A stretch of DNA of 64,000 bases from assembly GCA_026417795.1 (NCBI GenBank), contig JAOACP010000003.1, forward strand, positions 1 to 64,000, written 5' to 3'. The notes beneath the pieces are model-generated. The model was not told where the DNA came from. It was given only the letters and a program-made list of their open reading frames with translations, and ran no database searches. Source of the stretch: Thermanaerothrix sp. GTDB lineage: Bacteria; Synergistota; Synergistia; Synergistales; Synergistaceae. A program made the translations under genes and the position numbers. Below are positions 24,384 to 26,519 of the stretch, piece after piece (position 1 is the stretch's first letter; each line of letters begins with the position of its first letter).

Positions 24384-24423
24384 GTACACCCCTCCCAAGA
24401 ATTGTTATATTGAACAAGAAAGG

Positions 24424-24432
24424 ATTATATCA
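24424..24432 (-). promoter_or_regulatory. Extended -10 promoter for prfB
   Basis: On the minus strand TGATATAAT is a perfect TGnTATAAT extended -10, about 41 bases before the prfB ATG. No clear -35 is present. Confidence 0.65.
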
Positions 24433-24474
24433 CCATCGGGACAAGAGCCGCGGAGGAAGGAGATCGGGTTATAC

Positions 24475-25479
24475 ATGGATCAACGCCATGGGGTGGACAA
24501 CCGGGTAAGGGTGCTCTGGGTGCTGGCCCAAAACCCGGGGCAGCTGACCCCGAGCTCAGCGCTGGTAAGGGAGCTTAAAATCACAAGGCAGGGAATATCG
24601 AAGATAATAAGCACCCTAAAGGATGAGGGTATAAGGATTTCATCGGTGCCTCAAAGGGGGTACATCCTGGAGGGGGGCCCCGAAGGCGACGGTTTTTCTC
24701 CCTCCTGGGCAGAGATGCTTCTCATGGATTCTCCGCTGGGGCATCCCATATTTCATTACGCCTCCATCGGATCCACCCAGGCCCCGCTCAAGGAGATGGC
24801 GGCCCAAGGACGCCGGGAGGGGGCCGTTGTTGTGGCAGACGAGCAGACATCGGGAAGGGGAAGGCAAAGCCGGCGCTGGGAATCCCCCAAGGGGGGACTC
24901 TATGGGTCCGTTCTTCTGCGCCCCAAGCTGCTTCCACGAATGGTTCAGGCGGTAAACCTGGCCTGTGCCATGGCCATGGGGGATGCGCTTGAAGACCTTT
25001 GCCTCATAAGATGCGAGATCAAGTGGCCCAACGACATACTGGTACGGGGAAGGAAGATCTGCGGGATGCTTAGCGAAGGGGTCGTGGAGGTGGATCAGAT
25101 CCACCACGTGGTGTCCGGCTTTGGAGTTAACCTCAAGACAACTCCCATGCTGGAGGATCCCCTCACAGAAGCCACCTCGGTGGCCCAGGAGGGAGGCAGC
25201 GTTCCAAGCCGCCACGACCTTCTGGCCCATTTTTTAAAAAGGCTTGGATTTTACCTTGACATCCTGGGCATGGACCCTAAAAAATTCATGGAAATGTACG
25301 TTTCCAGATGTTGCACCATAGGCATGCGCATAAGGGGGACATGGAAAGAGGACGTCATCGAGGGGACCGCGGAGGGCTTGGACCAGGACGGTTCCTTGTT
25401 AATCCGGCTGGAGAGCGGCGAAGTATCAGCCTTCTCCGCCGGGGACGTCAAACACATAAGACCCGCGGAAGGGAGGTGA
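24475..25479 (+). CDS. birA: Biotin--[acetyl-CoA-carboxylase] ligase / repressor (BirA)
   Basis: This 334-residue protein has an N-terminal winged helix (LVRELKITRQGISKIISTLKDEGI). The ligase domain follows with STQAPLKEMA, TSGRGRQSRRWESPKGGLYGSV (biotinyl-AMP loop), CEIKWPNDILV and KICGMLSEG. It activates biotin with ATP, loads it on carrier proteins and probably represses biotin genes. The frame is open another 154 codons upstream, but that stretch is antisense to prfB. ATG 24475 has AAGGAG 12 bases ahead. The stop lies inside the SD of selD, so the two are cotranscribed. Confidence 0.94.
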   Translation: MDQRHGVDNRVRVLWVLAQNPGQLTPSSALVRELKITRQGISKIISTLKDEGIRISSVPQRGYILEGGPEGDGFSPSWAEMLLMDSPLGHPIFHYASIGSTQAPLKEMAAQGRREGAVVVADEQTSGRGRQSRRWESPKGGLYGSVLLRPKLLPRMVQAVNLACAMAMGDALEDLCLIRCEIKWPNDILVRGRKICGMLSEGVVEVDQIHHVVSGFGVNLKTTPMLEDPLTEATSVAQEGGSVPSRHDLLAHFLKRLGFYLDILGMDPKKFMEMYVSRCCTIGMRIRGTWKEDVIEGTAEGLDQDGSLLIRLESGEVSAFSAGDVKHIRPAEGR

Positions 25480-25484
25480 AGGTC

Positions 25485-26519
25485 ATGAGGCTTACGGAAC
25501 GGGCCAAGACCAGCGGGTGAGCCGCCAAGATAGGTCCAGCGGAGCTGGACCAACTGCTAAGGGGGCTCCCTTCCATTAAAGATCCAAGGCTTCTGTCCGG
25601 GTGGGACAACGGAGAGGACGCGGCCCTGTGGAGCTTAGGCGATGGGAGGCTTGCCATACTTACGCTGGACTTCATAACTCCCATAGTGGATGATCCCGTG
25701 CTTTTCGGGGAGATAGCAGCGGCAAACGCATTAAGCGACGTGTTCGCCATGGGGGGACTGCCAAAGGTGGCGCTTAACGTGGTGGCGTTTCCCACCTCCT
25801 GCGAACCCTTGGAGGTACTCAAGGGCATACTCATAGGGGGAGCCAATAAGGTCCAAGAGGCGGGAGCATGCCTTGCGGGAGGACACAGCGTTCAGGACAA
25901 CGAACCCAAGTACGGGCTATCGGTTTATGGCGAGGTTCGAGAGGACAGGCTCTGGAGGGTCACCGGAGCAAAACCCGGGGACGGGCTGGTGCTAACTAAG
26001 CCCTTGGGCAGCGGGATACTTACCACGGCGCTCAAAGCTGGAATGGCGGGGGAAGATGCGCTTGCAGAGGCAGTTAAGTGGATGGCCATGCTCAACGACC
26101 TTCCAAGGAAGCTCCCGGAGGATCTTATCGCCTCCATAAGAGCCGCAACGGACGTCACCGGGTTCGGCTTTATCGGGCACTGCCTGGACATGGTGAGCGC
26201 AGGAGATATGGACGCGGAGATAATGTCCTCAAGGATCCCTCCGATGAAGGGGGCCCTTGAGATGGCTTCCATGGGCATGGTTCCCGCCGGGGCTTACTCT
26301 AACAGGGAGCATTTTTCATCAAGGGTCCAGCTGGGAGAACAGGTTCCGCTTGAGGTTCAGGATCTTCTCTTTGACCCACAAACGTCCGGAGGCCTTCTTT
26401 TGGCAGTGGATCCAAGCATGGAGGACGAGTTGCTGAGAGCCCTTTGTGAAGTCGGATTTACCCAATCGGCTCTGGTTGGCAGGTTTAAGGAAGGGGCGGG
26501 GAACGCAAGGGTTGTTTAA
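25485..26519 (+). CDS. selD: Selenide, water dikinase with in-frame UGA selenocysteine
   Basis: Read with TGA at 25518-25520 as selenocysteine, the frame starts MRLTERAKTSGUAAKIGP, the SelD active-site motif (S/C/U)GC/UxxK with Sec12. Without this the N-terminus would be lost. The product is 344 residues with DFITPIVDDP, AANALSDVFAMGG, AGGHSVQDNEPKYG, DVTGFGFIGH and DPQTSGGLLLAV. It makes selenophosphate from selenide and ATP, the Se donor for Sec-tRNA. GGAGGTGA lies five bases ahead of the ATG and overlaps the birA stop. An hairpin of SECIS form follows the UGA. Being itself a selenoprotein implies feedback by selenium supply. Confidence 0.95.
25518..25551 (+). promoter_or_regulatory. Bacterial SECIS element of selD
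   Basis: Downstream of UGA, GGTCCAGC (25533-25540) pairs perfectly with GCTGGACC (25544-25551) around a GGA loop. The loop lies 20 bases after UGA and begins with GG, both within the ranges known for bacterial SECIS hairpins that bind SelB. Confidence 0.85.

Follow-up and report, generated by a model that had tools for sequence, protein, structure and literature searches.

Both the selenocysteine (Sec) and the cysteine forms of bacterial SelD have been surveyed, together with the bacterial SECIS element, or bSECIS (PMC4561486, PMC13188914). SelD has been described as a leading prokaryotic selenoprotein (PMC13188914), and the most widespread bacterial selenoproteins are reported to be FdhA and SelD (PMC1794560). 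With regard to the Synergistetes, 13 of 14 could use Sec and the phylum has been called selenoprotein-rich (PMC5029168). In the bSECIS model, a loop of 3-9 nt is carried by an upper stem of 4-16 bp, a G is found in the first two loop bases, the apical loop lies 16-37 nt from the UGA and the minimum free energy is at or below -7.5 kcal/mol (PMC13188914). Sec-containing SelD, the bSECIS and the richness of the Synergistetes in selenoproteins are therefore already published, and the gene described here, which lies in the 64-kb window (the whole stretch of 64,000 nucleotides that was analysed) from a Synergistota genome, is well supported as a real and ordinary case of the known arrangement.

The selD gene and its in-frame UGA

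The features of the locus are collected in Table 1. The ATG of selD (25485-25487) stands directly behind a strong SD sequence, GGGAGGTG, and codon 12 is a TGA; both had been pointed out in the earlier note and both were found again. With the UGA taken as a residue, the frame stays open until the TAA at 26517-26519, and its product is a member of the NCBIfam family TIGR00476 (346.2 bits, cutoff 125). The best match among solved structures is E. coli SelD (3u0o), to which residues 2-334 are homologous (E 1e-66). On this alignment the N-terminal motif of a Cys or Sec followed by a Lys is present, Sec12 being opposite Cys17 and Lys15 opposite Lys20. Cys17 and Lys20 of the E. coli enzyme are the catalytic residues.

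Table 1. Location of the features at and beyond the selD locus; positions are those of the window, except where a contig of the genome is given
Feature	Position	Strand	Basis
selD, selenide, water dikinase, 344 aa, predicted Sec at residue 12 (UGA)	25485..26519	+	TIGR00476, translation, 3u0o alignment
In-frame TGA, predicted Sec codon at the active site	25518..25520	+	translation; TGA shared with selD of about 110 Synergistota genomes
Predicted bSECIS hairpin, 8-bp stem GGTCCAGC/GCTGGACC, loop GGA at 25541-25543	25533..25551	+	folding, relatives, bSECIS model (PMC13188914)
birA-like biotin-protein ligase gene	24400..25479 (search coordinates, provisional start codon)	+	TIGR00121, 175 bits
grdA and grdB of glycine reductase, in-frame UGA codons (L142/L143)	G000:C38:9143-10690 and just downstream

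A mechanical ORF call returns for this gene only a 277-aa ORF from the GTG at 25686, in which the active site is lost. Such a call would fit a TGA that is either a real stop or a sequencing error, with a product starting downstream, for instance at that GTG, or with a pseudogene at this place. This is extremely improbable, as the 277-aa form has neither the catalytic Sec nor the Lys, the genome encodes tRNA-Sec, SelA and SelB, and conservation extends over the residues that precede and surround the UGA. The selD query was matched in 145 of 188 Synergistota genomes, and in about 110 of these the match is a SelD with a single TGA in its frame; the weaker matches probably represent related kinases. 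The in-frame UGA is kept across many other phyla as well. A stop or an error at this codon is strongly contradicted by this conservation. An intact selD, encoding a predicted Sec-containing SelD and carrying a bSECIS, is the reading that we favor, with a probability of about 97%.

SelA was matched in 139 of the 188 Synergistota genomes. A Cys-type SelD can be found in six sister genomes of the same family, and a SelA match is absent from five of these six assemblies. The sixth (G148) has its Cys-type SelD (L135, on G148:C297) and selA on one contig. Another genome (G072) has two Sec-SelD genes on different contigs (L138 and L139); in L139 a run of residues following VVDDPF is apparently missing.

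The birA-like gene ends 5 bp before the ATG of selD, and the gene order suggests that birA and selD may be a conserved gene pair. A birA homologue is also near selD in L099-L101, L110-L113 and other relatives, and in several relatives it is placed upstream of selD, as here.

The hairpin and its conservation

All eight pairs of the hairpin GGTCCAGC-GGA-GCTGGACC are perfect. A perfect 8-bp hairpin with a GGA loop had been announced 20 bases after the TGA; the hairpin itself stands as described, but 20 nt is the distance after which the loop starts, the stem starting at 12 nt. The hairpin is no product of chance: in the 64-kb window, only 16 perfect 8-bp hairpins with loops of 3-8 nt can be found, and only that of selD starts 8-15 nt past any TGA of the plus strand. 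The bSECIS check that had been proposed places the hairpin inside every published constraint examined: a 3-nt loop on an 8-bp stem, a loop GGA with its G at positions 1-2 (GGA being present in 13 of 13 Glu-type sequences), 20 nt from the UGA to the apical loop, and a fold of -14.9 kcal/mol. Synonymous recodings of the same peptide have a mean of -4.4 kcal/mol, and of 20,000 such recodings, drawn with the codon usage of the window, 0.3% fold equally well, the native sequence being stronger than 99.7%. The larger 81-nt fold is only mildly unusual (z -1.5), so that the folding signal is local to the hairpin.

The peptide encoded here, KIGPAELD, is highly conserved, and recodings of the Glu-type sequences already give about 5.6 of 8 pairs. 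The UGA could accordingly be read as Sec while the hairpin is a mere by-product of the peptide and no SECIS at all. We consider this very improbable, the native fold being in the top 0.3% and the pairing exceeding that of all recodings in relatives. The 12 distinct Glu-type sequences (motif PAEL) have 7.42 of 8 pairs, compared with a maximum of 6.6 in 1000 recodings, and the 71 Asp-type sequences, in their own register, have 6.55 of 8 pairs, compared with 4.72 in synonymous recodings (maximum 5.10 in 1000). For each type in its own register, the observed pairing was reached by none of the 1000 recoding sets. Furthermore, the six sister Cys-SelD genes encode nearly the same peptide, but the hairpin is weak or absent in five of them; L134, a Cys-SelD, has a stable hairpin, but in a different register. 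The conserved peptide leaves little room for covariation; in the Asp type, pair +13:+25 shows a compensatory exchange, G-C being replaced by A-U in five sequences.

A functional bSECIS is thus the preferred reading of the hairpin. The earlier note had suggested that related SelD sequences be compared for Cys or Sec, and both the UGA and the hairpin proved to be conserved across relatives; together with the decoding genes considered below, this supports its proposal of a putative Sec-SelD with an adjacent SECIS. Sec-SelD genes with a hairpin can also be found in Spirochaetota, Chloroflexota, Planctomycetota, Deltaproteobacteria, Campylobacterota and others. Among Actinobacterial SelD genes there are some in which this stretch is folded only weakly, so that a hairpin at that position is common, not universal.

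A one-codon difference in register

The loop is located at +18 to +20 past the UGA in the Asp type (Pro-X-Asp-Leu) and at +21 to +23 in the Glu type (Pro-Ala-Glu-Leu), the two registers being 3 nt apart. The selD gene of the window belongs to the Pro-Ala-Glu-Leu lineage, with its hairpin one codon downstream of that of the commoner Pro-X-Asp-Leu form. We give even odds to the proposal that, in the Pro-Ala-Glu-Leu SelD of Synergistota, the change from Asp to Glu at residue 20 was accompanied by a slide of the SECIS by exactly one codon, with its function kept. If true, this slide would show that a SECIS within a coding region can move while still functional, which would be a modest point for those who model SECIS evolution. 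In the general literature consulted on SelD and Sec use, the register difference between the two types is the one point of those made here for which no description was seen. When the hairpin of the window is set beside L102-L109 and similar loci, the displacement by one codon can be seen, with both registers above their synonymous recodings.

Sec decoding in the genome and comparison with known systems

The genome assembly searched comprises 1.92 Mb and is 97.5% complete. As the earlier note had proposed, selA, selB and tRNA-Sec were looked for, and all are present: SelA with 523 bits (cutoff 268), SelB with 372 bits together with a neighbouring match (cutoff 242), and a tRNA-Sec with 81 bits and a UCA anticodon. 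The genes selA and selB adjoin each other on contig C18. The presence of tRNA-Sec, SelA, SelB and SelD in one genome, which is the Sec-decoding trait, confirms at the level of gene content the predicted decoding of UGA as Sec.

The expectation of other selenoproteins was also borne out. GrdA has one in-frame TGA inside a full family match, with the motif CFVU, and GrdB has an in-frame UGA in LTSTUGTCTRC, preceded by a full GRDB match. A GrdB hairpin of 7 bp has its GGC loop 18 nt past the UGA; for GrdA, a simple scan for a hairpin satisfying the bSECIS energy rule returned none. No formate dehydrogenase above cutoff was found in the genome as an additional selenoprotein, nor was a selenouridine synthase (TIGR03167), so that a use of selenophosphate for SeU is not indicated. 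When the 64-kb window was screened for other reading frames with an in-frame TGA, none made a convincing case for another selenoprotein; those with the highest scores were taken for neighbouring genes that share a frame or for antisense frames. The Rfam scan of the window returned tmRNA and tRNA-Pro only.

By analogy with the E. coli system, SelB with GTP and Sec-tRNA(Sec) would bind the loop of the selD hairpin and deliver Sec at UGA 12. The resulting SelD would, from known biology, convert selenide and ATP to selenophosphate, from which SelA would make Sec-tRNA(Sec); SelD would therefore need its own product for its own synthesis. It would also provide the glycine reductase proteins GrdA and GrdB with selenium. 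Since the genome is predicted to decode UGA as Sec, its selD, grdA and grdB may be cut short by automatic annotation. In other respects the Sec-SelD of the window changes little, as the phylum and SelD have already been reported (PMC5029168, PMC13188914).

Compared with Sec-containing bacterial SelD (TIGR00476; PMC4561486, PMC13188914), the predicted protein has the same fold family and Sec at the catalytic position, with the Lys three residues after Sec and the bSECIS directly downstream in both. E. coli SelD (3u0o) shares the catalytic Lys but has Cys where the window gene has Sec. The hairpin is without differences from the bSECIS consensus of the bSECISearch type (PMC13188914). From most Asp-type SelD genes examined, the window gene differs in the position of its hairpin, one codon downstream, and otherwise in nothing of substance.
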